Assembly (NCBI RefSeq): GCF_003352835.1
Contig: NZ_QLVD01000019.1
Coordinates: forward strand, 62,001 to 126,000
DNA length: 64,000 nucleotides
Direction of reading: 5' to 3'
Origin: Ornithinimicrobium murale
GTDB lineage: Bacteria > Actinomycetota > Actinomycetes > Actinomycetales > Dermatophilaceae
The notes below the pieces were generated by a model. The model was not told the DNA's origin. It worked only from the letters and a program-made list of their open reading frames with translations, and ran no database searches. A program made the position numbers and the translations under genes. Below are positions 21,754-57,335 of this stretch, piece by piece. Position 1 is the first letter of the stretch. The number at the start of each line of letters is the position of its first letter.

Positions 21754-22002
21754 ATGAATGGATTGCCTCCAAGACTGTGGACGGTCGATGAACTGGCGGA
21801 CTACCTCTCCGTGCCTAAGGGCTACGTGTACAAACTCACGTCGGCGCGTCGCATCGGCTTCCTCAAGCTCGGCAAAGAGCTGAGGTTCACCGACAAGCAC
21901 ATCGAGACCTACCTGGATGCCATCGCGGGAACCAACTCCGCCGCTGCGGCACCACCCCTTGCAGTACGTCGCAGCGGGCGACCCAGGAAGAGGTCAGCAT
22001 GA
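21754..22002 (+). CDS. xis: Excisionase-like helix-turn-helix protein
   Basis: 82 residues from ATG 21754. A MerR/Xis-type HTH is clear (LWTVDELADYLSVPKGYVYKLTSARRIGFLKLGKELRF), followed by a basic tail (RRSGRPRKRS). In integrative elements such proteins bend DNA at att sites and direct the integrase toward excision. Its stop overlaps the integrase start (ATGA), so the two are coupled. A longer upstream in-frame extension covers the tRNA genes and was rejected. Confidence 0.87.
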   Translation: MNGLPPRLWTVDELADYLSVPKGYVYKLTSARRIGFLKLGKELRFTDKHIETYLDAIAGTNSAAAAPPLAVRRSGRPRKRSA

Positions 22003-23159
22003 GCAGCAAACCCCAGTACAAGAACGTCGAGCCCAACATCTCCCGCAGAGATGGCGCAGAAGGCACAACCTTCCGAGCCAGGGTGCGGGTCGGCGGCGAC
22101 AGGAAAGCCACCCAGACCTTCGACACTCTCGAGGAGGCACGCGCGTGGGTACGGACCGTACGCGCGGGGGACTACGACGTGGAGCCCAGAACTGAAGCCG
22201 CCCGGCCCAGCGGGACGATGACCTGGGCTCAGTGGCACGAGCAGTGGCTGGAGATGCTTCACGTCTCAGACAGCACCCGCGCCACCTACGTCTCGGTATC
22301 CAGGAACCACCTGCTGCCAGTGTTCGGCGGTATGGCGCTGTGTGAGATCAGGTCTAGCGACGTCATGGCGTTCCAGGCGCAGATGCGGGCGAAGAACAAG
22401 AAGAAGGCCACCATTGACAAGTGCCGCCAGGTGCTCGGGCAGACCATGTCGCTGGCACTGGCGGACGGTCTCATCGCCAGCAACCCGACGGTAGGGCTGC
22501 CCCGGCGTCGATCAACGCACAGCGACCCGGTCGAGGACATCGTGCGCCGGTACCTCGCCGTGGAGCAGCTCGACCGACTGGAGAAGGAAATGGACCTCTG
22601 GTGGCGGCTCGCGGTCCGTGTCCAGATTGAGCTCGGGTGTCGCATCGGTGAGCTGGCGGCCCTGCGTGTGAGCGACGTCGACCTCGCGGCTGGGGTTGTG
22701 CACATCCGCGGGTCGATGCAGAAGCGCGGAACCATTGGGCGCACCAAGACGCAGGCAGGTCTGCGGTCCATCAATACCCTGATGCCTCAGACCGCAGAAC
22801 GTATCGCTCAACAGGTCGAGGAGCGGGGTCAAAAGCCGGGAGATCTGCTGTTCACCGGGCCACGTGGTGGGCGACTGGATCAGGACACCTACCGCCGCCG
22901 AAAGTTCAACCCTGCTATGAAGGCTGCCGGGCTCGGGCGCATCTTGGAGAAGGGGCGCTCGTCGACTCACGTCCTGCGCCACACCCTGACAACCAACCTG
23001 GTGCAGCACGCTGGCATGTCGCCTCAGCAGGTCGCCATCCTGCTCGGCCACAAGGACTCCCGGGTCACCGACCGGGTGTATCTGCACCTGGAGTCCAGCG
23101 AGCTGCCGGACAACCGGGACAAGCTCGCTGCGATGTACCGCGGCACCCAGACGGGCTAG
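21999..23159 (+). CDS. int: Tyrosine-type site-specific integrase
   Basis: 386 residues. An arm-binding N-terminal region is followed by a core-binding SAM-like domain (TMTWAQWHEQWLEMLHVSDSTRATYVSVSRNHLLPVFG) and a catalytic domain. The expected R...HxxR...H...Y set is present: Arg in LGCRIGELAALRV, HVLRHTL, LLGHKD and the nucleophile Tyr in DRVYLHLES. It should integrate the element at the adjacent tRNA-Val. Coupled by ATGA to the excisionase. Confidence 0.96.
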   Translation: MSSKPQYKNVEPNISRRDGAEGTTFRARVRVGGDRKATQTFDTLEEARAWVRTVRAGDYDVEPRTEAARPSGTMTWAQWHEQWLEMLHVSDSTRATYVSVSRNHLLPVFGGMALCEIRSSDVMAFQAQMRAKNKKKATIDKCRQVLGQTMSLALADGLIASNPTVGLPRRRSTHSDPVEDIVRRYLAVEQLDRLEKEMDLWWRLAVRVQIELGCRIGELAALRVSDVDLAAGVVHIRGSMQKRGTIGRTKTQAGLRSINTLMPQTAERIAQQVEERGQKPGDLLFTGPRGGRLDQDTYRRRKFNPAMKAAGLGRILEKGRSSTHVLRHTLTTNLVQHAGMSPQQVAILLGHKDSRVTDRVYLHLESSELPDNRDKLAAMYRGTQTG

Positions 23160-23164: not shown

Positions 23165-23210
23165 CCACGAAAGCCACACCACTGGTCGACCAGTGGTGTG
23201 GCTTTCGTGG
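23165..23210. terminator. 46-base perfect palindrome after the integrase
   Basis: The two 23-base arms, beginning CCACGAAAGCCACACC, are exactly complementary with no unpaired loop bases. It starts 6 bases after the integrase stop codon and precedes the next promoter element, so a terminator is likely. There is no T-tract. Confidence 0.75.
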
Positions 23211-23216
23211 GTCGCA

Positions 23217-23234
23217 CCGCACAGTAGACGGGGT
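23217..23234 (+). promoter_or_regulatory. Class B element before a tagged gene
   Basis: CCGCACAGTAGACGGGGT lies directly before ATG 23235, with the CACA core ending 11 bases before the start. There is no Shine-Dalgarno sequence. Confidence 0.6.
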
Positions 23235-24566
23235 ATGACCAACCACATCAGCGACCGCGCCGAGACTGCCCGGGAGCAGCACCGTGACCCCTCTGGCAAG
23301 TTCGGGCGCCAGCCGGCCTCCGAGACGGACCTCGCCCTTGATGAGGCCACCCACGAGGCTGAGCGAGAGCAAACTCGAGAACTGGTCGTCGCCACCCGCG
23401 GCCTGTCAATCAACCCGACCACCGGGGCAGCGCCTCAGTTCATCCGCAACTATTCGTGGCATGACGAGGACCCGGACTCCGGCAACTTCGCCATGTGGTC
23501 TGAGGACCTGCTCAACACGTCGGCCACCGGACTGTCGGACCCGGCGCTGGACGACCTACACTCGGCCAGCTCGTTCATCGAGGAAGCCGCGGCCGACCCG
23601 GAGAACGCCACCGCGCAAGACGTTGCCCAGTCGGCCTACGACACCTACTGGCGCTATGACGCTGCCAGCGGTGACTTCGACGACAGCGAAGACCGCGAGC
23701 TGTGGGTCGCCTTGGCCCGGGCCAGCCGCGGTGAGCAGCCCAACGCCGCCCAGGTAGCGATGGCCGACGAGGTCGCCGCCCACGAGGCTGACGGTGGTGT
23801 CGTCGAGGTTGACCGCTATGACGGCAGCGTGCGTTGGCGAGTTAACGGTGACGAGCACGCCCCGCTGTTCCGTGCCTGCTCCGACACTGACGGTGCCCCG
23901 GCGCTGTTTAACAAGGACGGTGAGCCGATGGTGTGGGTTCGTGGATTCTCCACGGTCCGAGAGGTTCACGACGACGGCCAGGGCACCGTCTATGACCCGG
24001 AGACTGGCAACCCGACCTATGAGGTGAAGCCGGACGGTTCGTTCGCCCACTACGACCCGAGCTCCCCCTGGGATGAGCACCGACCGCCCGACGAGGGCCC
24101 GGCCAGGCTCGATCCCGACGGAGCCCGGTGGTCCTTCCACGACGAGCCCCACCGCGACCACCAGGACGGCCCGGCGATCATCCGCTGGGACGGTGAGGTG
24201 GAGTACGTCGAGGACGGCTCGGACGTGCACCCGCCGGACGAGGTGCTGGAGCGCCACCAGGTCGAGAGGGTCCCCGATCCGACGCGTCCGGACGGGGTGA
24301 GGTACTGCCTGAAGGGCTCCACGCGGGATGCGTCTTTCGACCTGACCGGGCACCCGCTCGACCACGGGCACTGCATCAGCGAGCCGGGATCGAAGAAGGA
24401 CCTGCCGGCGGTGGCCCACCTGATGACACTGAACACTGAGCGACGCCACGCGTCCGACTCGGCGGCCGTCAAGGGGCTCATCCGTGACGGTCACCCCGCT
24501 GCCAACCGGCTCCGGGCCCGGTTCTCTGTCGAGGCCAGCGAGGTCGACCAGGAGGCATCGCGATGA
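23235..24566 (+). CDS. Tagged protein with MORN-like DGxA repeats
   Basis: 443 residues from ATG 23235. The N-terminal shared motif is at about 8-32 (ETAREQHRDPSGKFGRQP then ASETD). The middle is acidic and helical. Residues ~210-370 contain repeated short units around DG, WxxxG and GPA (DGAPALFNKDGEPMVWVRG; HQDGPAIIRWDGEVEYVEDG), resembling MORN-type beta repeats common in phage proteins. The next gene starts inside its stop (ATGA). Function unknown; the class B element upstream ties it to the other tagged genes. Confidence 0.75.
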   Translation: MTNHISDRAETAREQHRDPSGKFGRQPASETDLALDEATHEAEREQTRELVVATRGLSINPTTGAAPQFIRNYSWHDEDPDSGNFAMWSEDLLNTSATGLSDPALDDLHSASSFIEEAAADPENATAQDVAQSAYDTYWRYDAASGDFDDSEDRELWVALARASRGEQPNAAQVAMADEVAAHEADGGVVEVDRYDGSVRWRVNGDEHAPLFRACSDTDGAPALFNKDGEPMVWVRGFSTVREVHDDGQGTVYDPETGNPTYEVKPDGSFAHYDPSSPWDEHRPPDEGPARLDPDGARWSFHDEPHRDHQDGPAIIRWDGEVEYVEDGSDVHPPDEVLERHQVERVPDPTRPDGVRYCLKGSTRDASFDLTGHPLDHGHCISEPGSKKDLPAVAHLMTLNTERRHASDSAAVKGLIRDGHPAANRLRARFSVEASEVDQEASR

Positions 24567-25432: not shown

Positions 25433-26221
25433 ATGAGCACGCACATGACTGCCGCCGCCGAGGCTGCCCGAGAGCAGAATCGCGGGCCTGGAGGCAAGTT
25501 CGGGGTCCAACCGGCCACCGAGTCCGACACCGAGCTCCCTTCCGGGCCCCGAGCAAGCCTGCAGATCTCCCGGAGCGAGCTGGCTGACCCCGACGACCGC
25601 GAAGGCCTGGAGAACGTGGCGGCCGCCCTGGAGAGGTCCGGAGTGGACGGTCACGTGGTCTGCGAGGTGCACATGTTCGCGACCGACATGGAGTTCGATG
25701 TCAACGACAGCGAGCTCGGCCAGTTCCGGGTGCTCTCGTCCCTGGATGGTCGCTTGGTCGCTGTCAGCCACCCCGAGACCGGCACCGAGCAGATCCGCAC
25801 CTCGAGGGATGGCGGCCTCACCCAGGAGCACCAGGAAGTCGTCGGGGTCTACTCCCGTGTGCGAGGCGCCGTGCACGCCCAGGTCGCCGTCCGTGACGCA
25901 GTCCAAGGAGTCGTCGGGCCAGACGTGCAGGCTGAGCTGACCGGTGACGGAATCGAAGTCACCTCGCCGCGCGGCAGCTTCGCCATCGAGCCTGATGCCT
26001 ACAACCGGCACAGCGACGGCGAGGCCACACTGCACACCGACGACGGCCGCCAGATCGAGGCCTCCTACAGCGCCCAGCACGAAGACGTAGCCCTGACCTA
26101 CGACGACCAGCCGCTTGGCCACCGCCGCACCGGTGAGGTCCTGGCCGAGCTCGACGAGATCGCCGGACGTCGCGACACCCTCATGAACACCTTCCGCAAG
26201 ACAGGAGCACCAAGCCGATGA
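25433..26221 (+). CDS. Tagged hypothetical protein
   Basis: 262 residues. The tag at 8-30 reads EAAREQNRGPGGKFGVQP followed by ATESD. The remainder is soluble, acidic and beta-rich (FRVLSSLDGRLVAVSHPETG; EVTSPRGSFAIEPDAYNRH), with a helical C-terminus (TGEVLAELDEIAGRRDTLM). No known domain. It is coupled by ATGA (26218-26221) to another tagged gene, so it heads a two-gene unit ending at the strong terminator at 26766-26821. Confidence 0.72.
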   Translation: MSTHMTAAAEAAREQNRGPGGKFGVQPATESDTELPSGPRASLQISRSELADPDDREGLENVAAALERSGVDGHVVCEVHMFATDMEFDVNDSELGQFRVLSSLDGRLVAVSHPETGTEQIRTSRDGGLTQEHQEVVGVYSRVRGAVHAQVAVRDAVQGVVGPDVQAELTGDGIEVTSPRGSFAIEPDAYNRHSDGEATLHTDDGRQIEASYSAQHEDVALTYDDQPLGHRRTGEVLAELDEIAGRRDTLMNTFRKTGAPSR

Positions 26222-26748
26222 GCACCGCCTACGACGAGACCAAGCACCCACGCGGGCCGCGAGGTAAGTTCGCTACCAAGCCTGCGGGGGAGTCCGAGGT
26301 CGCATTGGGGCCGTCGGTCGTACCGAAGCGCCAGCGCCCGTGGACACCAGAGACCGACTCCCTCGCCATCGACCGGCTCGCGATCATGCTGGCCGACACA
26401 GACGGCTCAGAGTCCACCGGTGACTACCTGGAGGACGCCGCGAACTTCATCGCCGCCACCGGACGCCCGCACCCCGGTGACGCCGACTTGGACACCTACC
26501 TTCGTGACCTGGTCGCCTGGGCTGACGAGGGATCGGACCGAGGCAGGCACGGCAAGCCATCGAAGGACACCAACGCGATCAACACGCTCGCCCTCCATCT
26601 CGCGCGGACTCCGGACTGGAGCGCGGACGAAGTCGAGGAACTGAGCAACACGGTCACCCGCACGGGTCGCCCAGCCCTGACCAACGCTATTCGTGGCCCT
26701 GCTGGTGAGGACTACCAGCGCGCACTGGACGACTGGCGCGCGCAGTAG
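26218..26748 (+). CDS. Tagged hypothetical protein (HPRG variant)
   Basis: 176 residues. Its tag is the HPRG variant (KHPRGPRGKFATKPAGESE) and starts nearer the N-terminus. The body is helical with two similar halves: DSLAIDRLAIMLADTD...FIAATGRPHPGD and NAINTLALHLARTPD...TVTRTGRPALTN, suggesting an internal duplication. It has no upstream element of its own and depends on coupling with the preceding gene. Function unknown. Confidence 0.7.
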   Translation: MSTAYDETKHPRGPRGKFATKPAGESEVALGPSVVPKRQRPWTPETDSLAIDRLAIMLADTDGSESTGDYLEDAANFIAATGRPHPGDADLDTYLRDLVAWADEGSDRGRHGKPSKDTNAINTLALHLARTPDWSADEVEELSNTVTRTGRPALTNAIRGPAGEDYQRALDDWRAQ

Positions 26749-27010: not shown

Positions 27011-27892
27011 TCAGATTTCGACCCAGTAGGAGCCACGCTCGTAGCCCCAGACCTGGGCCCGGTCGCCGTCGTTGGGGCTGGCCATGAGCTGACGGAGGCC
27101 CTCGTTGACCTCACCGGTGTCGACGTCCTCGGGCCAGCCGTACTCGAGCTCCACACGGGCGCCGGCGGCATCGGTCGCGCTCTCGATGTACGGGCCGTCA
27201 GACTCCTCGCAGATCTCAACCCGGGTCACGCTAGGCTGGTAGGCGCGGAACAGTTCCTTAAACGCCTCCCGGCCACGGACCAGCCGATCACGCTCCTGCG
27301 CCACACTCCGGTGCGGTCCATGACTGGCCGCCTCCGAGAATGAGTCGAAGTGATCGGGCTGTCCAGTGTCCGGGTCGTGCCAGTCCTCGCCCCACGGTGC
27401 ATCCGGGTGGTCGACCTCGAGCTCCAGGGTCCTGGCGCCGTCGACCTCGGGGCCGTAGATCTCGTCGACGACCGTGGCATCCCAGGAACTCGCGCCGTGT
27501 TCGACGGCGGCGTCGTAGGAGTAGTAGGCGCCATCGGCCGGGAAGTTCTCTGGCTCGGTCAGGTCGATGAACTCGCCGTCGGGACCCGTTGCCTCGGCCA
27601 GGTGCGGACCGGGGTAGCCCTCGTCCTGCCGCAGCCGCACCTTTGTCGCGCCGGGGAAGCTGCGGCGCAGGCACTGACGGAGCGTCTCGCGCGCTGCCAC
27701 CAGCCGGGCCACCTCGCCGTTGCGGTCCTGCGCACGGTCGGGGTCGGTGACGCTGGCCAGGTCGTCCTCCACTGTGCCGGTCAGGACGTCGCCATCAGCT
27801 TCGGAAGCAGGCTGGACCCCGAACTTGCCATCGGGAGAGCGCGCCTGCTCGCGAGTTGCCTCGGCCTGGCTGCTGATCTGCTGGATGCTCAT
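27011..27892 (-). CDS. Tagged hypothetical protein
   Basis: 293 residues with the tag at 9-32 (EATREQARSPDGKFGVQP, then ASEAD). The body seems to hold two related modules, each with a helix then an acidic beta segment: LVAARETLRQCLRRSFPGATKVRLRQDEGYPGPHL and LVRGREAFKELFRAYQPSVTRVEICEESDGPYIE. This suggests an internal duplication. Function unknown. It is preceded by a class B element. Confidence 0.75.
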   Translation of the reverse strand: MSIQQISSQAEATREQARSPDGKFGVQPASEADGDVLTGTVEDDLASVTDPDRAQDRNGEVARLVAARETLRQCLRRSFPGATKVRLRQDEGYPGPHLAEATGPDGEFIDLTEPENFPADGAYYSYDAAVEHGASSWDATVVDEIYGPEVDGARTLELEVDHPDAPWGEDWHDPDTGQPDHFDSFSEAASHGPHRSVAQERDRLVRGREAFKELFRAYQPSVTRVEICEESDGPYIESATDAAGARVELEYGWPEDVDTGEVNEGLRQLMASPNDGDRAQVWGYERGSYWVEI

Positions 27893-27910: not shown

Positions 27911-28020
27911 GGCTCGCGCGCTGGCCCCACTGCTGTGAAGCAGCTCGCAGTGTCACGGCGAAGTAGCAGAGCATCACGAACAGCAGACTCGCCAGCTCGT
28001 TGACCGAGATGCTCTTTTGT

Positions 28021-28041
28021 GGGGCTTTTAAGGGGCTTTTA
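28021..28041 (+). promoter_or_regulatory. Direct repeat in the toxin-antitoxin promoter region
   Basis: GGGGCTTTTA occurs twice, at 28021 and 28032, an 11-base period, 43 bases before the antitoxin start. A TTAGCAT-like -10 follows. Binding by the antitoxin is inferred. Confidence 0.45.
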
Positions 28042-28083
28042 TGGGTGTTAGCATGGGGATGTGAACCGGAAGGAGTGCTAATC

Positions 28084-28458
28084 ATGAGCGACCTGATGAC
28101 CAAGACGCACGCGGGCACGACGCGGCAGAACATCCACGAGACGGTGCGTCAGCTGAACCAGGCACTCGGTACCACCGCAGTGTCCTTTCTCGCTGATGCG
28201 AAGGACCGCAAGCAGGCCGGACGGTGGGCGAGACCGGATGGTGTCGAGCCTCGTGCGGCTACTAAAAAGAGGTTGCTCGCGGCGCACCGTGCATGGCAGA
28301 TCCTGGTCCTCTCTGAGGGTGAGTACGTGGCCCGGAACTGGTTCATCGGCACCAACCCGCGACTGGCGGAACGTTCCCCCCTGGAGGCGCTGCGAGAAGG
28401 CGAGAGCGACCTGGTGGTTTTGGCCGCTGGTGCCTTCGCAGACGGCACCGACGGATGA
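28084..28458 (+). CDS. Xre/ParS/MbcA-family antitoxin of a RES module
   Basis: 124 residues from ATG 28084, with a GGAAGGAG ribosome site. The N-terminal half is a DNA-binding region (TVRQLNQALGTTAVSFLADAKDRKQAGRWARPDG). The C-terminal half is the toxin-binding domain (FIGTNPRLAERSPLEALREGE). Such proteins neutralise RES toxins and repress their own operon. The stop overlaps the toxin start (ATGA at 28455). The direct repeat upstream fits an autoregulated promoter. Confidence 0.85.
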   Translation: MSDLMTKTHAGTTRQNIHETVRQLNQALGTTAVSFLADAKDRKQAGRWARPDGVEPRAATKKRLLAAHRAWQILVLSEGEYVARNWFIGTNPRLAERSPLEALREGESDLVVLAAGAFADGTDG

Positions 28459-29275
28459 CCTCAGCCGCGACGACCGGGCTGGAACGACATGTGCTCGAAC
28501 GGGCCTACGTCTGGTCGCCTGTCGCCGGCAAACCATCTACCGGATAGCCAAGACGTCCTACGGTGCCCTGAACCCAGTGCAACGCACTGGGGGGCAGGTT
28601 GAGTCGTGGGGCCGATGGGATGTCGACGGTCACCGTACGGCTTACGCGGCGGACAGTGAGTATGGGGCCTACATCGAGGTCCTCAAGTATCTGAGCCCAT
28701 CACCGCGGCTGAATGTCGCCACTCGCGACGTCTTCCCTGACGACGACTCGACCGAACAGCCCGGAACCCTCTTGGACGTCATCCGATCTCAGTGGGATGA
28801 CCAGTTCACAGGCTTCACCGTGGGCAAGCTTCCTCAGGTCTGGCGAGATGAGCGACGCCTGTACGAACTGCAGCTCCCCTGGGACGGGTGGCTCGTCGAC
28901 ATCGAGCACAGCGACACTCTGACAGCCCTGAACGCACGCATCGCCCAGGTGCTCCCCCCGGACTCCGGGGACTCACGTGACGTTGTCGACGCCCTGACCC
29001 GCGGACACCTCACCGGGGAGAGTCGTCGCATCACGACCACGGTGGCCGCGTACATCCACGCCGTGGTCCTCCAAGACGGTAGCCTCCCGCACGGCATCGC
29101 GTTCGGCTCCAAGCACGGGCAAGACCTGGGGTGTCTTGCGGCATGGTTGCGGAAGATGGATGACGGTCACCCGACAAACCTCGAGCCAACGAAGCTGACC
29201 GGCACCTTCACGATCGACCTGGACAACGAGACGTTCAAGCGGGCAGCCGACCAGGTCGGGCTCCAAGCGTTCTAG
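28455..29275 (+). pseudogene. RES-domain toxin, frame interrupted near 28530
   Basis: The frame starting at ATG 28455 (MTSAATTGLERHVLERAYVW) hits TAG soon after the AAA at 28530-28532. The RES domain continues in the -1 frame (TIYRIAKTSYGALNP, SRPR-like DEXG core region, to QVGLQAF at 29275). One extra A at 28530-28532 would join the frames into a 273-residue RES protein. RES toxins consume NAD+. The gene may be truly broken, programmed or misassembled. It is coupled to the Xre antitoxin. Confidence 0.75.
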
Positions 29276-29277: not shown

Positions 29278-29914
29278 TCAGCCCAGTATGGGCTCCAGCT
29301 TCCCGGACAGTGCGCGCGACATGGACGTCTTCCTGCCACCGGGACCCTTCACCTCATCGCGCCAGCCCGTCCACGTCCAGGACCTGCCACCGTCGATGAT
29401 CTCGGTCCGCGTCCCGTTGACCTGTTCGTGGGCCCGGTGGGCTGCCTGGCGCTCCAATTCGGTGCGCAGACGGTCCCAGGCGACGGCACGGTTCTGGTGC
29501 TGGGAGCGTTCCTCGGCGGCGGTCACCACAATCCCGGTCGGCAGGTGGGTAATCCTGATCGCGCTGTCGGTCTTGTTCCTATGCTGCCCGCCTGGCCCGG
29601 TGTCACGGTAGGTGTCGACCCGCACGTCGGCCTTGTCGATCTTCACGTGGGCGGGCATACCGGTGTCCTCTAGGGCGATGACGGCCACCTCGGAGGAGTG
29701 CCGGCGGCCGCGCTTCTCGGTGGCGGGAACGCGTTGGATGCGGTGCGTGCCGGCCAGTGACCTCAGGGAAGGGTCAAAGACGCTCCAGGACGATGGTGCG
29801 GCCGTCCCGGGAGGTGGTGCTGCCGGTGTGCTTGGCGATCGCGTCGCCCAGTTCTGCAGCAAACGACTCGGCGTCCGCGCCACCCTCACGGGGGTGGATT
29901 TCCAGGGTGATCAT
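29278..29914 (-). CDS. Release-factor-like protein (RF1-type PAT and GGQ) with +1 frameshift site
   Basis: Start ATG 29914 with AAGGAG upstream. Frame 0 gives 46 residues (ITLEIHPREGGADAESFAAE) and stops at TGA 29774-29776. A +1 shift at CTT TGA C (plus-strand 29773-29779) joins the rest: a PAT codon-reading motif at 63-65 (HRIQRVPATEKRGRRHSS) and GPGGQHRNKTDSAIRITHLPTG with GGQ at 108-110. The whole protein is 211 residues and resembles domains 2-4 of RF1 without domain 1. GGAG three bases before CTT mimics the RF2 stimulatory site. It probably releases peptides on ribosomes. The gene upstream ends 10 bases before. Confidence 0.85.
29773..29786 (-). promoter_or_regulatory. Programmed +1 frameshift site (GGAG-CGT-CTT-TGA-C)
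   Basis: On the minus strand GGAG (29783-29786), a three-base spacer, then CTTTGAC (29773-29779). This copies the architecture of the bacterial prfB frameshift site: an SD-like stimulator, 3 bases, CTT TGA C. The residues before and after join into a continuous release-factor domain. Confidence 0.85.
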
Positions 29915-29924
29915 TGCGTGCTCC

Positions 29925-30395
29925 TTAGTCGCACAAGGTGATGGTCGAGATGTACTTGTCCGTGCCGGCCAGTTGCAGCCAGCCGTCGGCATCGGTGGTC
30001 GTGGTCAGGAGCTCATCGCCGGCGACCACGGTGCCGACGACCTCGTGGTCAGTGCTCGGCCCGGCTCGCAGGTTCGCCACGTCGGAGCAGACCTGAGCGG
30101 TGGACTCGGCCGGTGGTTGTGCCGCGGCCTTAGCCTGCTCGGGCTCAGTGGGTTCGTCCTTGGTGGCCGACTCGGTGACCTGAACGGCGTCGCTGTCCTG
30201 GCCCTCGCTGTCGTCAATGAGGCCTTTGATCAGGGAGACCATGAAGAGCACCAGCGCGATGCCGATGATCGGGACGACGACCAGTACCAGCGCCCGGCGA
30301 CCGTGCCCCTTGGTGATGAGGGGCTTGCGCGGGGCCTTGCCAGGTGCCTCCTGGGTCAGCTCGTCGGTCTCGTCGTCGTCCACACTGGTGAACAT
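29925..30395 (-). CDS. Membrane-anchored SH3b-domain protein
   Basis: 156 residues. A short basic/acidic cytoplasmic N-terminus is followed by one membrane segment (LVLVVVPIIGIALVLFMVSLI), an acidic linker, and a C-terminal bacterial SH3 domain (VCSDVANLRAGPSTDHEVVGTVVAGDEL) facing outward. Bacterial SH3 domains often bind cell wall. Two Cys flank the domain and may pair. It lies 10 bases upstream of the release-factor-like gene, probably in one transcript. A paralogous arrangement is at 31548-32585. Confidence 0.78.
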   Translation of the reverse strand: MFTSVDDDETDELTQEAPGKAPRKPLITKGHGRRALVLVVVPIIGIALVLFMVSLIKGLIDDSEGQDSDAVQVTESATKDEPTEPEQAKAAAQPPAESTAQVCSDVANLRAGPSTDHEVVGTVVAGDELLTTTTDADGWLQLAGTDKYISTITLCD

Positions 30396-48955: not shown

Positions 48956-49305
48956 GCGGCCGCCATCTCGTCGACCAGACCGTCGGGCACCATGACCCCG
49001 GCCTCGGCCATCTCAGTCAGCATCTGGGCGCACTCTCCGCTGGTGTCGAGGATGTAGCTCTGCCCGCCGTACGGTGCCGGGACAGCCTGCCAGGCACCGT
49101 ACTCGGGGCTACCGACCCTCGCGCTGATCCTCGCCTGCTGGATGAGCCACTCCTTGACCGCCTCCGGGTCGCCAGGTTCAAAGGGCAACTGGACAGGCAG
49201 CTCGTCCGTCCAGTCCCACCTACGGGAAGCAACATGGATGACGAAGCCGTCGTCGGACCCGTAGATATAGACGTCGGAGGTGTCGGACCAGCGTGTATAG
49301 CTCAT
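48952..49305 (-). CDS. Hypothetical phage-like protein
   Basis: 117 residues from ATG 49305. The start (YTRWSDTSDVYIYGSDDGFV) resembles small actinophage proteins of unknown role; the C-terminus is helical (GECAQMLTEMAEAGVMVPDG). It overlaps both neighbours by 4 bases, so it is translationally coupled. Confidence 0.65.
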   Translation of the reverse strand: MSYTRWSDTSDVYIYGSDDGFVIHVASRRWDWTDELPVQLPFEPGDPEAVKEWLIQQARISARVGSPEYGAWQAVPAPYGGQSYILDTSGECAQMLTEMAEAGVMVPDGLVDEMAAA

Positions 49306-49943
49306 GCCTCGATGGTGTGGCGGCCAGGCTCGAGCACCTTGACGGTTGCCGAGCCGGGAGCGATCTCGGTCAACCCGGCGTCGTGGATGGACAACTCGGG
49401 GGAGGTGGCCAACTCGGCTGCAGCGACCTCGGCCAGGTCGAAGCGCCGACCGCCGTAGAGCCAGTCGGTCCGGGCATCCTCGTCCAGGCTCAGCAGCCAC
49501 GCGAACAGTCCGTGGGCCACCTGGGCGGCGCTCTTGCCGGTCGACATCCCCAGGTCGGTGTTCACCAGGATGGTCGGGCCACCTTCGGTCGCGACGTCTT
49601 CGGACCCGCAGCGAGGTAGCTCCAGTCCGGTCACCTGGAGCTTGCGGACGTAGCGGTCCATCTCGAAGTAGGTGACCGGCACCAGGGCAGCCGCAGCGGC
49701 CTCACCAACCCGCTCCACCACGACAGGCCCGGCGTCCAGTGCACGGGTCAGGGCGTGCTCGTTCTTGGCGCGGCGCACGGTCTTGGTGAACCGGCCGGCC
49801 AACCAGGGCCCCCAACTCGGGTGCTCGTGGTGGGTCAGCCAGGCGGTCACCGAGGCGAGGGCCACTGCACGGCAGGCATCCTCGTGCGTTCCAGCGTCGA
49901 GCAGCACGATGGGCTGCACGAGATCGAGGTCGTCCACGGTCAC
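49302..49943 (-). CDS. PTH2-like peptidyl-tRNA hydrolase with duplicated fold
   Basis: 213 residues from GTG 49943. The C-terminal half contains the PTH2 signatures LVNTDLGMSTGKSAAQVAHG (124-145) and HDAGLTEIAPGSATV near the end. The N-terminal half (AVALASVTAWLTHHEHPSWG; GRFTKTVRRAKNEHALTRAL) looks like a degenerate first copy, so a tandem duplication is likely. PTH2 enzymes release peptide from peptidyl-tRNA that has dropped off ribosomes. On an element with a tRNA array and a release factor this suggests a role in tRNA recycling. Confidence 0.75.
   Translation of the reverse strand: MTVDDLDLVQPIVLLDAGTHEDACRAVALASVTAWLTHHEHPSWGPWLAGRFTKTVRRAKNEHALTRALDAGPVVVERVGEAAAAALVPVTYFEMDRYVRKLQVTGLELPRCGSEDVATEGGPTILVNTDLGMSTGKSAAQVAHGLFAWLLSLDEDARTDWLYGGRRFDLAEVAAAELATSPELSIHDAGLTEIAPGSATVKVLEPGRHTIEA
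49306..49322 (-). promoter_or_regulatory. Class A element inside the PTH2-like gene end
   Basis: CGCCACACCATCGAGGC on the minus strand directly precedes ATG 49305, with CACA ending 10 bases before the start. Confidence 0.55.
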
Positions 49944-50473: not shown

Positions 50474-50490
50474 GGCCTGTTGGTGTGGCG
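50474..50490 (-). promoter_or_regulatory. Class A element before the zinc-ribbon gene
   Basis: CGCCACACCAACAGGCC (minus strand) directly precedes ATG 50473 and abuts the class B element of the divergent gene. Confidence 0.65.
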
Positions 50491-52806: not shown

Positions 52807-53006
52807 CCGGCGGCGACCGCAGACGACCCAGGTCCACGACGTCCATGTTGGTCGCGAACTCGCCCCGTTTCATGCCGAGCCCACGCACCTGGCGCGCCGT
52901 CCCGTCCGGGTATGCCATGCGTGCAGCATGGGACCTCCCTCGTTGTACCGGCAAGAAAATGGGTTGATTGCGCTGTGCGGCACCAGGATTGCTTGACGTT
53001 TCTCGG

Positions 53007-53078
53007 TGCCCCCGGCAGGAGTCGAACCTGCGACACCCCGTTTAGGAAACGGGTGCTCTTCCGCTGAGCTACGAAGGC
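53007..53078 (-). tRNA. tRNA-Arg (CCT)
   Basis: 72 bases; anticodon loop TTCCTAA; acceptor GCCTTCG with CGGGGGC including G-T pairs. Confidence 0.92.
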
Positions 53079-53130
53079 AAAGAGCCAGGTGGCCGAGTTG
53101 GGGATCGGGGACGCACTCGGCCACCTGGCT

Positions 53131-53147
53131 GCCCTGCTGGTGTGGCG
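53131..53147 (-). promoter_or_regulatory. Class A element inside the tRNA array
   Basis: CGCCACACCAGCAGGGC, followed by A at 53130 where other copies have the A of ATG; here no start codon follows. The site precedes tRNA-Arg (CCT), so it behaves like a promoter. Confidence 0.6.
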
Positions 53148-53180
53148 TTCGCTGGTCCTCGCCCCTCGAACGTGGGCTGG

Positions 53181-53253
53181 TATCCCCAGCGGGACTCGAA
53201 CCCGCGTTACCAGCGTGAAAGGCCGGCGTCCTGGGCCACTAGACGATGGGGAC
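53181..53253 (-). tRNA. tRNA-Glu (TTC)
   Basis: 73 bases; anticodon TTC; acceptor GTCCCCA/TGGGGAT with one G-T pair. Confidence 0.93.
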
Positions 53254-53257
53254 CTGG

Positions 53258-53328
53258 AGATGCTGATCGGATTCGAACCGACGTACGCGGAGTTGCAGTC
53301 CGCTCCCTAGCCATTCGGGCACAGCACC
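53258..53328 (-). tRNA. tRNA-Cys (GCA)
   Basis: 71 bases; anticodon loop CTGCAAC; acceptor GGTGCTG/CAGCATC. Confidence 0.93.
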
Positions 53329-53333
53329 ATGTG

Positions 53334-53418
53334 CGGAGGATGCAGGGATCGAACCTGCGCGGGTGTCACCCCGGCCACCGCTTAGCAAGCGGGCGCCTTG
53401 CCTCTCGGCCAATCCTCC
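53334..53418 (-). tRNA. tRNA-Ser (GCT)
   Basis: 85 bases with long variable arm; anticodon loop TGCTAAG; acceptor GGAGGAT/ATCCTCC. Confidence 0.94.
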
Positions 53419-53510
53419 TTGCTCTGGGCGCTTTGACGAACGACACAACCAGCCGTTGACCTGCGCAGATGCACCCAGGTCCGTCGATCGGGCCCCTTGG
53501 GGCACCGTGG

Positions 53511-53529
53511 CGCCACACCCCAAGTGGGC
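53511..53529 (+). promoter_or_regulatory. Class A-like element upstream of the NlpC/P60 gene
   Basis: CGCCACACCCCAAGTGGGC followed by ATGTTCACC; CACA ends 12 bases before this A. The real start codon is 55 bases further on with its own ribosome site, which supports a promoter role. Confidence 0.5.
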
Positions 53530-53584
53530 ATGTTCACCACTGGACACCTTCGTCCCGTGCGCGTCCCCGACCTTGGAGAAACCC

Positions 53585-54436
53585 ATGCGCAACACCAACC
53601 GCGCCCTCGGCCTGAGCCTCGCCGGCACCGTGGCAGTCACTGCGCTGGTGGCCGCGAGCCTGACCGGCGGCGCCAGCCAGACCCCTGCCCCTACTGCCGA
53701 GACAGTCGCCGCCCAGGTGAACGAGTCGCCCGTCGCCATGCTGATGACCGACGCAGGGCCAGCCGCCCAGCGCGACCAGCCCGCGGCCAGCCGGAGCCGG
53801 GATCGTGAACTGGTCATCTCCGAGGGCGTCACGCCCCAGCCCGTCGTAGCTGAGCCGGTCGTTGCAACGAAGGCACCCGCCGACATCGAGCCGGTCTACT
53901 CCCCACCCCTGGGTTTCACCGGGATCACCCCTGCGCCCGAGCCTGCCCCGGAGCCCGCCGCTGAGCCGGTCTCCGAGCCCGTCCAGGCAGACGAGCCGGT
54001 CTCCGAACCCGCAGAGGTGCCCGCCCAGCTCACCTCGGCGCCGGCCGTGCAATCCGAGCCGGCACCAGAGCCTGAGCCTGCGCCTGCCCCGGCACCCCCG
54101 TCCAACAGTGGCGGCGTCCTGGGTATCGCGGCCAGCTACGTCGGCACGCCATACTCACTCGGCGCGAGCGGCCCGGGTGCCTTCGACTGCTCCGGCTACA
54201 CCTCCTACGTCTTCGCTCAGGTCGGCATCAACCTGCCCCGCAGCGCGGCCGCCCAGCAGTCCTACGCCACCCCGGTGAGCAACCCGGCCCCCGGCGACCT
54301 GGTCTTCTGGGGCTACCCGGCCTACCACGTCGGCATCTACGCCGGCAACGGAATGGTCTACGACGCGGGCAACCCCGGCACCGGTGTCATTTACCGGTCG
54401 GTGTTCTCCGGGGTCAGCGGCTACGGCCGCGTCTGA
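53585..54436 (+). CDS. Secreted NlpC/P60 peptidoglycan hydrolase
   Basis: 283 residues from ATG 53585 with TTGGAG upstream. Signal peptide (GLSLAGTVAVTALVAASLTG), a long Pro/Glu/Ala linker of about 100 residues that could span the wall, then a C-terminal NlpC/P60 domain: catalytic Cys in AFDCSGYTSYVF and His in YPAYHVGIYAG. Such enzymes cut peptide bonds in peptidoglycan. On a mobile element it may open the wall for transfer. It is the only plus-strand gene within this part of the tRNA array. Confidence 0.92.
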   Translation: MRNTNRALGLSLAGTVAVTALVAASLTGGASQTPAPTAETVAAQVNESPVAMLMTDAGPAAQRDQPAASRSRDRELVISEGVTPQPVVAEPVVATKAPADIEPVYSPPLGFTGITPAPEPAPEPAAEPVSEPVQADEPVSEPAEVPAQLTSAPAVQSEPAPEPEPAPAPAPPSNSGGVLGIAASYVGTPYSLGASGPGAFDCSGYTSYVFAQVGINLPRSAAAQQSYATPVSNPAPGDLVFWGYPAYHVGIYAGNGMVYDAGNPGTGVIYRSVFSGVSGYGRV

Positions 54437-54440
54437 GAGG

Positions 54441-54513
54441 TGCCCCCGGCAGGGCTCGAACCTGCGACACTCCGATTAAAAGTCGGTGGCTCTACCAACT
54501 GAGCTACGGGGGC
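54441..54513 (-). tRNA. tRNA-Lys (TTT)
   Basis: 73 bases; anticodon loop CTTTTAA; acceptor GCCCCCG/CGGGGGC. Confidence 0.95.
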
Positions 54514-54519
54514 GTGGGC

Positions 54520-54636
54520 TCAGGCCGCGGGCTCCCGGACCATCACCATGCCGTCGCACATCGGGCACCAGACGGCGCTGCTGCCAAGGCTGACCTGCAG
54601 TCGGTGTCCGCACTCGAGCTCCTGCTTGCTGTCCAT
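54520..54636 (-). CDS. Tiny zinc-ribbon-like protein within the tRNA array
   Basis: 38 residues from ATG 54636 with GAGGAGG upstream. ECGHRLQV then WCPMCDGMV gives a CxH and CxxC set for one zinc. Between tRNA-Lys and tRNA-Leu on the same strand. Function unknown. Confidence 0.55.
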   Translation of the reverse strand: MDSKQELECGHRLQVSLGSSAVWCPMCDGMVMVREPAA

Positions 54637-54667
54637 GACGACCTCCTCGTCGCTGGCGATGTTGTGG

Positions 54668-54751
54668 TGCCCCGGGAGAGAGTCGAACCCTCACGCCCGT
54701 ACGGGCACTGGTTTCTGAGACCAGCGCGTCTGCCAGTTCCGCCACCGAGGC
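54668..54751 (-). tRNA. tRNA-Leu (CAG)
   Basis: 84 bases with long variable arm; anticodon loop CTCAGAA; acceptor GCCTCGG/CCGGGGC. Confidence 0.94.
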
Positions 54752-54778
54752 ATTGCGGGGCGACCTGTGAGGGTGCCC

Positions 54779-54854
54779 TGGAGCGGACGACCGGGCTCGA
54801 ACCAGCGACCTCCACCTTGGCAAGGTGGCGCTCTACCAACTGAGCTACGTCCAC
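54779..54854 (-). tRNA. tRNA-Gly (GCC) with encoded CCA
   Basis: Anticodon loop TTGCCAA; acceptor GTGGACG/CGTCCGC; CCA encoded at 54779-54781. Confidence 0.95.
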
Positions 54855-54867
54855 GAGGTACTGCGAG

Positions 54868-54940
54868 CTGCCCAGGCAGGGCTCGAACCTGCGACATTCC
54901 GATTAACAGTCGGACGCTCTGCCAGCTGAGCTACTGGGCA
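54868..54940 (-). tRNA. tRNA-Asn (GTT)
   Basis: 73 bases; anticodon loop CTGTTAA; acceptor TGCCCAG/CTGGGCA. Confidence 0.95.
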
Positions 54941-54945
54941 ATGAG

Positions 54946-55023
54946 TGCGTGCCTCCGGAGTCGAACCGGTCCCACGAACTGCGACCGTCGCCGCATGTTC
55001 GTCCGGCCCTCGCGGAGACACGC
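54946..55023 (-). ncRNA. tRNA-like RNA without canonical anticodon arm
   Basis: Acceptor GCGTGTC/GGCACGC (one G-T) and T-arm CCGGTTCGACTCCGG are intact over 78 bases. The middle instead folds as ACGAAC-A-TGCG...CGCA-GTTCGT, a longer hairpin with loop GCGACGGT, and no normal D-arm or anticodon is found. Either a decayed tRNA or a tRNA mimic. Confidence 0.5.
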
Positions 55024-55120
55024 GTCCTGGTGCCGGCGGATCGCTAGCCGTCACGACGGACAACATGAGGCGTACCGGTCTGGCCGGACTTGCCTGCGAC
55101 CCGGATGGCACCGGGACTGG

Positions 55121-55194
55121 CGACCCTGACCGGACTCGAACCGGCGACCTCCCGGCTGACAACCGGGCGCTCTAACCAACTGAGCTACAGGGCC
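55121..55194 (-). tRNA. tRNA-Asp (GTC)
   Basis: 74 bases; anticodon loop TTGTCAG; acceptor GGCCCTG/CAGGGTC. Confidence 0.94.
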
Positions 55195-55198
55195 TTGG

Positions 55199-55270
55199 CT
55201 TCCCGTCAAGGATTCGAACCTCGATTACTGGAACCAGACTCCAGCGTCCTACCAATTGGACGAACGGGAA
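55199..55270 (-). tRNA. tRNA-Gln (CTG)
   Basis: 72 bases; anticodon loop GTCTGGT; acceptor TTCCCGT/ACGGGAA. Confidence 0.9.
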
Positions 55271-55297
55271 ATGAGTTGTGCGGCAATGAAACTGAGG

Positions 55298-55371
55298 TGG
55301 CCCGTGTGAGGTTCGAACTCGCGATCTCCACCTTGAGCGGGTGGCGTCTTGACCAACTAGACCAACGGGCC
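55298..55371 (-). tRNA. tRNA-Glu (CTC), atypical loop lacking U33
   Basis: 74 bases; acceptor GGCCCGT/ACGGGCC. The anticodon stem CCACC/GGTGG encloses CGCTCAA, so position 33 is G instead of the almost universal T. Confidence 0.85.
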
Positions 55372-55373
55372 GG

Positions 55374-55446
55374 GGTGACCGGCGGGGATCGAACCCGCAA
55401 CCTCCTGACTCACATTCAGGCGCTCTGCCAGTTGAGCTACGGCCAC
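55374..55446 (-). tRNA. tRNA-His (GTG)
   Basis: 73 bases; anticodon loop ATGTGAG; acceptor GTGGCCG/CGGTCAC, discriminator C. The base before position 1 is T, so the extra G-1 of tRNA-His seems not encoded. Confidence 0.93.
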
Positions 55447-55448
55447 AG

Positions 55449-55521
55449 TGGTCACGGCAGGGATCGAACCTGCGACTCCCTCGGTGTGAACGAGGTGCTC
55501 TGCCATCTGAGCTACGCGACC
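55449..55521 (-). tRNA. tRNA-Val (CAC)
   Basis: 73 bases; anticodon loop TTCACAC; acceptor GGTCGCG/CGTGACC. Confidence 0.94.
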
Positions 55522-55564
55522 TGGTGCACCGATGTCGCACGGTGCCAGCACCTTAGTTGCTGAG

Positions 55565-55648
55565 CGGAGGGTGGAGGAGTTGAACCCCTGCCCGCAATGG
55601 ACACCACGGTTTTCAAGACCGCTTGCCGACCGACCGGCGGCACCCTCC
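55565..55648 (-). tRNA. tRNA-Ser (TGA)
   Basis: 84 bases with long variable arm; anticodon loop CTTGAAA; acceptor GGAGGGT/ACCCTCC. Confidence 0.94.
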
Positions 55649-55660
55649 AGGGTTGATGCG

Positions 55661-55744
55661 TGCCTCGGGAGGGAGTCGAACCCTCACGCCCTCGTGGACA
55701 CCGGTGTTTGAGACCGGGGCGTCTGCCTGTTCCGCCACCGAGGC
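55661..55744 (-). tRNA. tRNA-Leu (CAA)
   Basis: 84 bases with long variable arm; anticodon loop CTCAAAC; acceptor GCCTCGG/CCGAGGC. Confidence 0.94.
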
Positions 55745-55749
55745 TTGCG

Positions 55750-55822
55750 AGCCCACCCCCGGGGTCGAACCGGGAACCTGCCGCTTACAAGGCGGATGCT
55801 CTGCCAGTTGAGCTAGGCGGGC
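55750..55822 (-). tRNA. tRNA-Thr (TGT)
   Basis: 73 bases; anticodon loop TTGTAAG; acceptor GCCCGCC/GGTGGGC. Confidence 0.95.
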
Positions 55823-55959
55823 GAGGTGCCGCTGAACGGAAGGCGTGGGCGTCAGCAGGCCCCGTCGCACGGCGCGTCGCACGTCGTGCAGGCAGCGGGG
55901 GAGGGGCGCACTGCTCGAGGCTGGCGCCTTCCGCGTCGACGTCGCCATGGCAGTGCAGC

Positions 55960-56223
55960 TCATCGAGCCACCGTCTCGAAGAACGACAGCCGGGTGAGTC
56001 GGCCGTTGGGATCGAAGGTAAACTCGCCGAACTGTCCGCCACCACGGTCGGACCTCTCGGGTGCTGACCACGGGTCGACGTACAGATCGACGTCAGTGTC
56101 TCCCGGCCACCTGCTCCGGGCGATGACGCTTTGACGGACGCCTCGACGACGGAACACTTCGCTGATGAGCTGCTGGTCGGTGAAGCCGTCCAGGGCTGGC
56201 GTTGAAGTCTGCTCGTCGTTCAT
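55960..56223 (-). CDS. Small hypothetical protein within the tRNA array
   Basis: 87 residues from ATG 56223 with GGAGG 5 bases upstream. DGFTDQQLISEVFRRRGVRQ then DTDVDLYVDPWSAPE; the end has FGEFTFDPNGRLTRLSFFE. A class A element at 56236-56252 predicts transcription starting 12 bases upstream of this ATG. Unknown function. 55823-55959 holds only a short Cys-rich frame that was not called. Confidence 0.65.
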   Translation of the reverse strand: MNDEQTSTPALDGFTDQQLISEVFRRRGVRQSVIARSRWPGDTDVDLYVDPWSAPERSDRGGGQFGEFTFDPNGRLTRLSFFETVAR

Positions 56224-56235
56224 CGTGACCTCCAT

Positions 56236-56252
56236 GGTTTTCGGGTGTGGCG
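56236..56252 (-). promoter_or_regulatory. Class A element upstream of the 87-residue gene
   Basis: CGCCACACCCGAAAACC on the minus strand, followed by A at 56235 ten bases after CACA; the start codon is 12 bases further with an SD sequence. Confidence 0.55.
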
Positions 56253-56276
56253 CCACCAGCCGCGGTGTCCTTCTGG

Positions 56277-56348
56277 TGGCCCTCCCTGGGATCGAACCAG
56301 GGCACCGCGGGCTTCAACCGCGTGCTCTGCCAACTGAGCTAGAAGGCC
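56277..56348 (-). tRNA. tRNA-Phe (GAA)
   Basis: 72 bases; anticodon loop TTGAAGC; acceptor GGCCTTC/GAGGGCC. Confidence 0.94.
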
Positions 56349-56488
56349 TTGATGCAAGAGGTCGAGGAGTCCCAGTACGGCGCCGGCGCTACCGGACTTG
56401 GCTTGGCCACGGGCTTGGCCCACCGGGTGGTCCTGCCTGCATTCGCTGCGGGTCGTGCGACTCCCGCTGGCCGACTGGGCCCTCTACG

Positions 56489-56561
56489 TGCCGCTCCGAG
56501 GACTCGAACCTCGCGCCCTCCGATTAAGAGTCGGATGCTCTACCTGATGAGCTAGAGCGGC
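56489..56561 (-). tRNA. tRNA-Lys (CTT)
   Basis: 73 bases; anticodon loop CTCTTAA; acceptor GCCGCTC/GAGCGGC. Confidence 0.95.
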
Positions 56562-56633
56562 AGGTGCCGATGTGGCCCCATGAGGGTCAGGGGCTACGAC
56601 TTCGCGGGCCACCGGCAGCACCCGTGAGGAAGT

Positions 56634-56709
56634 TGGAGCGGACGACGGGACTCGAACCCGCACGCTTCTGCTTGGAGGGCAGATGCTCAACCAATCGAGC
56701 TCCGTCCGC
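56634..56709 (-). tRNA. tRNA-Gly (TCC) with encoded CCA
   Basis: Anticodon loop CTCCAAG; acceptor GCGGACG/CGTCCGC; CCA encoded at 56634-56636. Confidence 0.94.
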
Positions 56710-56741
56710 GAAAGCCGGCCCGAACTCCGAGGCGGCCGAGT

Positions 56742-56821
56742 TGGTGCGGCAGGACTCGAACCTGCGATACCCGAAGGTGGCGGATTTACAGTCCGCTACA
56801 ATAGCCACTATGCGACGCACC
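56742..56821 (-). tRNA. tRNA-Tyr (GTA)
   Basis: About 80 bases with a medium variable arm; anticodon loop CTGTAAA; acceptor GGTGCG/CGCACC. Confidence 0.9.
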
Positions 56822-56823
56822 AG

Positions 56824-56900
56824 TGGCGCGGGCGGGATTTGAACCCGCGATCTCAAGGCTTATGAGGCCTGCGAGGACGACCGAACTCCTCCACCGCGCA
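56824..56900 (-). tRNA. Initiator-like tRNA-Met (CAT)
   Basis: 77 bases; anticodon loop CTCATAA. Acceptor TGCGCGG against CCGCGCC leaves T1 opposite C72 unpaired, and the D-stem GAGG/CCTC has an A11-T24 pair. Both are hallmarks of bacterial initiator tRNA. The usual three G-C pairs at the anticodon are G, G, C here. Confidence 0.85.
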
Positions 56901-56901
56901 G

Positions 56902-56974
56902 TGCCCTCGACAGGACTCGAACCTGTGACCTTCGGCTCCGGAAGCCGCTGCTCTATCCGCTGAGCTACGAGGGC
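56902..56974 (-). tRNA. tRNA-Arg (CCG)
   Basis: 73 bases; anticodon loop TTCCGGA; acceptor GCCCTCG/CGAGGGC. Confidence 0.94.
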
Positions 56975-57034
56975 AATTCGTTCTGGACTGGCTGGCGATG
57001 AGAAATCTGGCCCCAGACCTGGCCTTACATAGAC

Positions 57035-57304
57035 ATGGAGCGACAGTCAGAACGGATCATCATTCACCAGAAGAACGCACCCGGAACGTGCCGCTGGTTC
57101 ACCTACGGGGGCAGCACATACACACTCATGTACGGCGGGCACGGTTTCGGCTGGACGGTGTACGACCAGGACGATCAGCTCGTCGACGAGTACCACACCC
57201 TTCGTGAGCTGCGGGCGGGGTTCCTCGGCTCGGCTGCACCTGTCGACTGGGGAGCGGGCTTCGTCGTGGCGGGACGGATCGAACGTCCGACGCCGGCCTT
57301 ATGA
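57035..57304 (+). CDS. Small hypothetical protein opposite the array end
   Basis: Up to 89 residues from ATG 57035. The first 75 look real (IIIHQKNAPGTCRWFTYGGS then TYTLMYGGHGFGWTVYDQDD), beta-rich. The last residues read through a tRNA gene on the other strand, which makes the true end uncertain. Unknown. Confidence 0.45.
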   Translation: MERQSERIIIHQKNAPGTCRWFTYGGSTYTLMYGGHGFGWTVYDQDDQLVDEYHTLRELRAGFLGSAAPVDWGAGFVVAGRIERPTPAL

Positions 57305-57335
57305 GGGCCGCGCTCTGCCACTGAGCTACGCCACG
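57264..57335 (-). tRNA. tRNA-Met (CAT), elongator-like
   Basis: 72 bases; anticodon loop CTCATAA; fully paired acceptor CGTGGCG/CGCCACG, unlike the initiator-like copy. Ile (lysidine-modified CAT) cannot be excluded. Confidence 0.9.

Follow-up and report, generated by a model that had tools for sequence, protein, structure and literature searches.

A short RF1-type release factor gene with an RF2-style +1 frameshift site on a probable mobile element, and internal stops in nearly all of its classified distant phage relatives

Introduction

Bacterial RF2 is the textbook example of a release factor that regulates its own synthesis by frameshifting. A locus of Ornithinimicrobium murale raises the question of whether such a signal can also serve another kind of release factor. 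Within a stretch of 64,000 nucleotides of contig NZ_QLVD01000019.1 (hereafter the window), a short release factor gene is interrupted by a stop codon and continues in the +1 frame, an arrangement that the initial annotation had taken for an RF2-style frameshift site in an element-borne gene. Here we ask whether this break is genuine, what class of factor it interrupts, and whether the gene stands alone.

Results

Anatomy of the interrupted gene

Direct reading of the window sequence places the gene on the minus strand, at 29914-29278 (Table 1). A frame of 46 codons starts at ATG (29914-29912) and reaches CTT (29779-29777), TGA (29776-29774) and C (29773); the +1 frame opens at GAC (29775) and runs to a stop at 29280-29278. 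With TGAC read in one step as D, the joined product has 211 residues. In Pfam searches the 0-frame part gave a weak PF03462 match alone, and the +1 part matched the end of PF03462 (E 1.8e-6) as well as PF00472. The sequence thus agrees with the anatomy proposed initially, namely an ATG frame that stops after 46 codons, a GGQ part in +1 and a 211-residue read-through product, which comparison with other factors identifies as lacking domain 1. The same annotation described the junction as the exact layout of the prfB site; this holds for CTT TGA C and for GGAG in the window, but the GGAG part does not extend to the three nearest relatives.

At the window site the anti-Shine-Dalgarno (anti-SD) pairing amounts to -6.1 kcal/mol. 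In ten hand-picked ORFs of the window, CTT makes up 27 of 466 leucine codons. The SH3_3 gene upstream is inferred to be co-transcribed with the release factor gene.

Table 1. Coordinates, within the window, of the interrupted gene and of other features of the region
Feature	Coordinates	Strand	Evidence
Tyrosine integrase beside three tRNA genes	21999..23159	+	phrog_1 E 1.5e-65
+1-frame part, 165 codons + stop; remaining domain 2, PxT, GGQ	29278..29775	-	PF00472 E 1.3e-27
GGQ catalytic motif	29584..29592	-	P0001 residues 108-110, invariant in alignment A6
PAT, RF1-type (PxT) codon-reading tripeptide	29719..29727	-	P0001 residues 63-65, alignment A6
CTT TGA C frameshift site	29773..29779	-	Same aligned place in L006, L035, L115
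Invariant core GTCTTTGACC	29781-29772	-	Longest identical run in four genes
0-frame N part, 46 codons (MITLEIHPREGG...IVLERL), start of RF domain 2	29777..29914	-	PF03462 E 0.026
GGAG, Shine-Dalgarno-like, 3 nt (CGT) before CTT	29783..29786	-	Absent in three nearest relatives
AAGGAG, probable ribosome-binding site, 6 nt before ATG	29921..29926	-	Sequence reading
Upstream gene, SH3_3 domain; TAA overlaps AAGGAG site	29925..30395	-	PF08239 E 2.5e-7
PTH2-type peptidyl-tRNA hydrolase, second translation gene of region	49302..49943	-	PF01981 E 2.9e-12
Array of 23 tRNA genes	53005..57335	-	ARAGORN; 22 of them also by Rfam

Conservation of the break in close relatives

Three close relatives, with 55-62% identity at the level of the joined proteins, were recovered from a genome of the host's family (L006; G103, the one clade member from a family-level search of 186 genomes), from Actinoplanes xinjiangensis (L035) and from a 53 kb IMG/VR contig (L115). 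In each of them the 0-frame N part ends with HRL or HCL at CTT TGA CC and the remainder lies in +1, so that CTT, an in-frame stop and C, with the rest in the +1 frame, are present in all four members of the clade. Conservation follows these frames: the mean pairwise identity of the N part is 55.5% in the 0 frame versus 37.7 and 37.3% in the others, and that of the C part is 57.6% in +1 versus 35.9 and 35.8%. The longest run that is invariant among the four genes is GTCTTTGACC, of 10 nt, the next longest being 6 nt. The same break at the same place in three relatives, together with the shared GTCTTTGACC, indicates that it is not an error. Close homologs in one uninterrupted frame would have refuted the claim of an RF2-style +1 site in a short release factor; none was seen among the three nearest relatives, all of which keep CTTTGAC in place.

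Other elements of the signal are less uniform. Pairing with the anti-SD at the sites of L006, L035 and L115 is 1.2, 0.6 and -2.2 kcal/mol, respectively, and a consensus fold of the clade, with a covariation term of +0.81, gave no clear support for a stimulatory RNA structure. In overlapping samples of 394, 396 and 396 genomes of the class, order and phylum (thresholds E 1e-45, 1e-40 and 1e-40), no further member was found beyond the window's own genome. We regard it as very likely that the window gene is expressed through a +1 frameshift; frameshifting itself is inferred, in the absence of expression data.

The release factor gene is the only clearly common item of the fetched neighbourhoods of clade members, and long ORFs that flank it in the window match ORFs of L035 and L483 at 28-36% identity. 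One copy of the clade sits in a phage contig, that of L115 (also L150), which encodes a sliding clamp, a clamp loader and a DNA methyltransferase. A match to a phage-type exonuclease lies near L006 (L482, E 1.2e-18).

An RF1-type factor without domain 1

RF1 models outscored those of prfB and prfH for all seven joined proteins compared (the window and six relatives); the window protein obtained 139.1 bits with RF1, 121 with prfB and 85.7 with prfH. All seven remain below the cut-offs of the full-length models. Indeed, the RF1 NCBIfam equivalog requires at least 400 bits, and the part that the window protein matches begins only at model position 173; in two phage forms the alignment to the RF1 model starts at position 105 or 106 and ends at 333 of 347. 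The best match in a PDB sequence search was again RF1 (E 2.9e-29). The structure predicted for the +1 part alone from four sequences (mean pLDDT 66) reached a TM-score of 0.40 to the first release factor match, and with such low TM-scores the model adds little.

The PxT motif corresponds to the reading of UAA and UAG, and an RF1-type factor should not read UGA. Both PxT and GGQ are present in the window protein, and the codon-reading motif of the four clade genes is PAT, PET, PAT and PDT, never SPF. Judged by its sequence, the window gene encodes a short class-I release factor that is of RF1 type and lacks domain 1. With such a product, reading of the internal UGA should fall to host RF2, and plain RF2-style autoregulation does not follow; of the initial proposal, the assignment to release factors stands, but the direct RF2-type autoregulatory reading does not. 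The host's own RF1 and RF2 genes (L001 and L002) are uninterrupted and encode 363 and 408 residues.

Two other families were considered and rejected. PrfH membership is contradicted by a TIGR03072 score of 85.7 bits against a cut-off of 166.65, with RF1 models scoring higher, and ArfB membership by the presence of domain 2 (PF03462) and by an ArfB model score of 43.6 bits against a cut-off of 100.

Genomic setting

The integrase and its three tRNA genes span 21.4-23.2 kb of the window, and the region further carries the tRNA array and the PTH2 gene. The integrase and the array support the initial description of the gene as element-borne, which remains likely, but an attachment repeat for the integrase was looked for and none was found. 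That the tRNA array and the release factor gene belong to one element is likely, not demonstrated. Among the loci of the wider family described below, 107 of 184 carry at least one tRNA gene and 65 of 184 five or more; the flanks fetched for L006 and L035 yielded none, and L150 has only one, unassigned. Because of the integrase, the 23-tRNA array and PTH2 in the region, and of the tRNA genes in many loci, the factor seems to belong to a mobile translation kit, both in the window and in many phages.

Several other features of the region were observed. A RES-domain protein (28196-29275; PF08808, E 6.2e-5, just over the cut-off) is convergent with the release factor gene, and a small ORF without a Pfam match (28000-28458) overlaps the 5' end of the RES gene, possibly forming a RES/Xre-like pair. 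Positions 58452-62156, in a stretch of lower G+C (0.59-0.60), encode a 1234-residue protein with a YobI-like P-loop NTPase (PF20693, E 1.8e-109). Seven ORFs (23193-24566, 25433-26221, 26218-26748, 27011-27892, 43765-44388, 50485-51489 and 51514-52806) share, by eye, an N-terminal signature like EAAREQNRxPSGKFGxQPAxES before different bodies, the signature being shorter in 26218-26748; it links 23-53 kb and could be a tag or a sorting signal.

Internal stops in distant phage and element relatives

A census was compiled from viral scans, six huge-phage regions, L006, L035 and the window. For each gene the start of domain 2 was located in any frame and the way in which it joins the GGQ part was recorded, with no junction motif required. 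The viral scans employed interrupted genes as queries and contributed the best 80 of 364, 500, 420 and 363 relatives. Among the 186 distinct genes of this first census, 100 had one in-frame TGA, two had two and one had an in-frame TAG; in 75 the rest lay in +1, and eight were open after domain 2, four of these with CTTTGA in phase close to their N terminus. At the +1 junctions the stop was preceded by CTT in 74 of 75 (59 TGA, 12 TAG and 3 TAA), compared with 137 CTT among all 13,607 codons of the same genes. The remaining junction, that of L476, has AAC before TGA, and may be misassigned or represent another kind of site.

The first scans had kept the relatives most similar to their queries, which were interrupted, and we therefore rescanned with an alignment of four open genes (A7), patterned on other stretches. 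From the best 80 of 261 relatives, 68 could be classified, of which 64 were interrupted, the four open ones being the query rows themselves. Single-protein scans with two open members returned only two and one relatives, queries included. Pooled, and with the window set aside, the first census and the rescan, whose scan lists were each limited to the best 80, comprise 192 classified relatives, of which 188 are interrupted by an internal stop: 76 in the +1 arrangement, 108 in frame and four as an N-terminal CTTTGA, leaving four open. CTT precedes TGA, TAG or TAA in 75 of the 76 +1 genes, and UGA comes first in 107 of the 108 in-frame genes. Left unclassified were 30 GGQ ORFs without a domain-2 match and 35 loci, several of which resemble members. 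With a stop in 188 of 192 relatives, selection seems to favour one. The claim of a release factor with a frameshift site thus holds for the window, but as no lone case, many relatives having an in-frame UGA and some CTT TAG.

Otagovirus-type phage proteins (L238-L242), annotated or matched as release factors, resemble the GGQ domain only and are of another kind. Among them, the short "release factor 1" proteins of Pseudomonas phages (L238-L240) have GAGGM at the position of GGQ, which L242 retains.

Huge phages from INPHARED contain both arrangements. The release factor gene of LR745208.1 (485 kb) has CTTTGAC with GGAGG, and that of LR756511.1 (595 kb) has CTTTGAC at its N terminus, the position of the start codon not being fixed. 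A single in-frame TGA is found in LR756504.1 and LR756502.1, and two in-frame UGAs, 8 and 13 codons apart, in LR745206.1 (635 kb; L232) and LR756501.1 (735 kb; L235), respectively.

Signals at the two kinds of site

Pairing of the anti-SD with the 13 bases upstream of CTT averages -7.69 kcal/mol over the 74 +1 sites. A value of -6 kcal/mol is reached at 58 of them, nearly all from distant phage relatives, versus 9.9% of codon positions elsewhere in these genes. Of the 74 sites, 38 have GGAGG or GGGGG at a spacing of exactly 3 nt upstream of CTT, five have it at a different distance and 31 lack it. The mean pairing at in-frame UGA sites is -1.05 kcal/mol, with -6 reached at one of 100. These in-frame stops follow GGC or GGT in 91 of 100 cases and precede A in 75; by eye, they align with Trp or another aromatic residue of RF1 sequences, and it is for this position that near-cognate tRNA-Trp is inferred to be their likely reader. 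PPT is the common codon-reading motif in the UGA, UAG and in-frame classes alike.

The sampled phages with an in-frame UGA show no sign of general UGA recoding. Terminase matches are free of internal stops in the 12 of 16 such records that have a match, as are RNR matches in the 15 of 20 records that have one, including four huge phages. ORF coverage by genetic code was mostly uninformative; a clear case is L202, with 0.91 under table 11 and 0.91 with UGA as sense. Suppressor tRNAs were likewise rejected as a general cause, stop anticodons occurring in only 3 of 184 family loci (each 3.5-20.5 kb). We note that the tRNA genes with stop anticodons, in clusters near the recoded release factor genes, are those of L157 (cta), L147 (cta) and L214 (tca).

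Tree and position of the site

A tree of 141 rows was calculated, with 50 of the 102 in-frame-UGA rows (a class that includes two double-UGA rows) and without the outgroups L001, L002 and L244; it is drawn with midpoint rooting, and its bootstrap had not settled. The four genes of the window clade form a firm group (100/99) at the end of a long branch, which falls with the RF1/RF2 rows, apart from 130 phage rows (99/95); this makes the support that phage relatives lend to the window gene indirect. From the site to GGQ the window clade has 60-63 residues, as against 77-87 in 54 of 59 CTT-TGA genes; L157 has 70, and for N-terminal sites the figure is about 113 or more. Separate gains of the signal are thereby suggested, long-branch error not being excluded. 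CTT-TAG requires 11 changes on the tree, seven of them forced by well-supported branches; thus the stop is readily swapped. Given that the location of the site differs among genes and that the tree shows repeated changes in its type, the gating was probably gained more than once.

Discussion

We consider it likely, with good confidence, that the window carries a short RF1-type factor, on a probable mobile element, that is made by programmed +1 frameshifting when UGA termination in the host is overtaxed. Ribosomes would translate 46 codons up to CUU UGA C. Prompt decoding of UGA by host RF2 would release a 46-residue peptide without the catalytic domain; if termination at UGA were slow, the peptidyl-tRNA on CUU could slip to UUU and translation would proceed in +1, yielding the 211-residue factor. 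The element might in this manner supply a factor of its own to a host whose UGA termination is overtaxed, within the kit that it carries (tRNA array and peptidyl-tRNA hydrolase). Frameshifting is supported by the conserved break and invariant site in four of four clade members, by CTT at 74 of 75 +1 junctions and by strong SD pairing at 58 of 74. Its occurrence remains an inference, as do a shortage of RF2 as the trigger and the later role of the factor; regulation by host RF2 is the best reading, although untested. The efficiency may also be low, considering that the SD is missing in three of the four genes, that the prfB motif yields 6.6% frameshifting in M. smegmatis, and that it is missing from prfB of 2,658 Actinomycetota genomes (PMC12421855, for both). 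Against this prfB background, the RF1-type gene of A. xinjiangensis is an instance of the CTTTGAC arrangement in a genome of the Actinomycetota.

In phage relatives the stop varies among UGA, UAG and UAA with the same PPT motif, and a trigger specific to RF2 therefore cannot explain all cases. This variation within one frameshift group is what the main rival would lead one to expect, a true autoregulation in which a factor of broad specificity, despite its PxT motif, terminates at its own internal stop, so that a low level raises its synthesis, as for RF2. UAG sites are in addition directly compatible with an RF1-type product. Most of the stops, however, are UGA, which an RF1-type factor should not read, and PPT is shared by the UGA, UAG and in-frame groups; we hold this alternative to be possible, and only tentatively so. 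A PrfH-like rescue factor, acting on damaged or stalled ribosomes and gated by the internal stop to termination failure, would be in line with the missing domain 1, which PrfH also lacks, and PrfH chains do match weakly (sequence E 3.6e-14, fold E 3.0e-5). The prfH model score lies far under its cut-off and below those of RF1 models, however, and the retained PxT favours reading of stop codons, leaving this explanation unlikely.

Initiation of the +1 part at a start codon of its own, giving two separate proteins, is conceivable in three of the four genes, where possible starts precede the site by 36 and 38 (GTG) or 29 (TTG) codons in the window, by 11 and 16 (GTG) in L035 and by 37 and 40 (ATG) in L115. 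The three have no start position in common, though, and in L006 the +1 frame is free of ATG, GTG and TTG from its last stop up to the site; moreover, the N part is conserved as a 0-frame protein and the invariant 10-mer would be left unexplained, so that we give this reading very little weight. A pseudogene or sequencing error, which the frame break alone might suggest, is scarcely credible in view of the same break in three of three close relatives, of the conservation of each part in its own frame and of CTT in 74 of 75 comparable genes.

Returning to an internal stop that responds to host termination, a release factor gene gated in this way would be a sensor of the host's termination capacity. 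We find it probable that short RF1-type factors of phages and elements form a large, unrecognised class, gated almost always by an internal stop that is passed either by prfB-style slippage into +1 at a CTT that precedes UGA, UAG or UAA, or by readthrough of an in-frame UGA, and sensing host termination capacity. This suggests that mobile elements and phages sense and patch a shortage in the protein-ending machinery of their hosts, and termination capacity may be a host-virus battleground. The signal is now seen in RF1-type phage and element genes at other positions and with other stops, alongside a readthrough version; these are natural replicates for the standing question of why a release factor should be gated by a stop codon, and by which one. 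Gene callers may split or miss such proteins.

If correct, this view places in one class RF1/UAG and in-frame-UGA versions for which a 2016 review (PMC5009743) knew no bacterial examples: it was aware neither of RF2 genes that contain an early in-frame UGA and continue in the same frame, nor of a UAG/RF1 counterpart in bacteria. Every CUU-stop +1 entry of the RECODE set is prfB (PMC10274946), and neither TAG in the prfB motif nor a convincing programmed frameshift in bacterial prfA was detected (PMC12421855). In the open-access literature, with most subscription journals and bioRxiv outside its scope, we found among the papers listed no report of a frameshifted or read-through release factor gene in bacterial phages; the initial view that a frameshift in a short mobile-element release factor is undescribed met with no counterexample there, and no prior description of the family-wide pattern of internal stops was found in that literature.

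The closest known system is prfB, with which the window gene shares the slippery CTT followed by TGA and C, with GGAG 3 nt upstream; GGAGG or GGGGG at exactly that distance is found at 38 of 74 +1 sites of the family. The window product is of RF1 type, in contrast to that of prfB, and its site lies within domain 2, that of prfB being close to the N-terminal end of full-length RF2; further, the SD is absent in three of four clade members and TAG is used in 12 phage relatives. RF1 (prfA) is the best family by NCBIfam and PDB sequence searches and has the same PxT and GGQ motifs, but window-type factors lack its domain 1. PrfH is similarly short through loss of domain 1, and differs in that the window protein falls below the prfH cut-off and retains PxT. 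Finally, PMC5009743 mentions a giant virus whose release factor gene requires recoding, by both readthrough and frameshifting; this is a viral release factor gene as well, the hosts in that case being amoebae and not bacteria.
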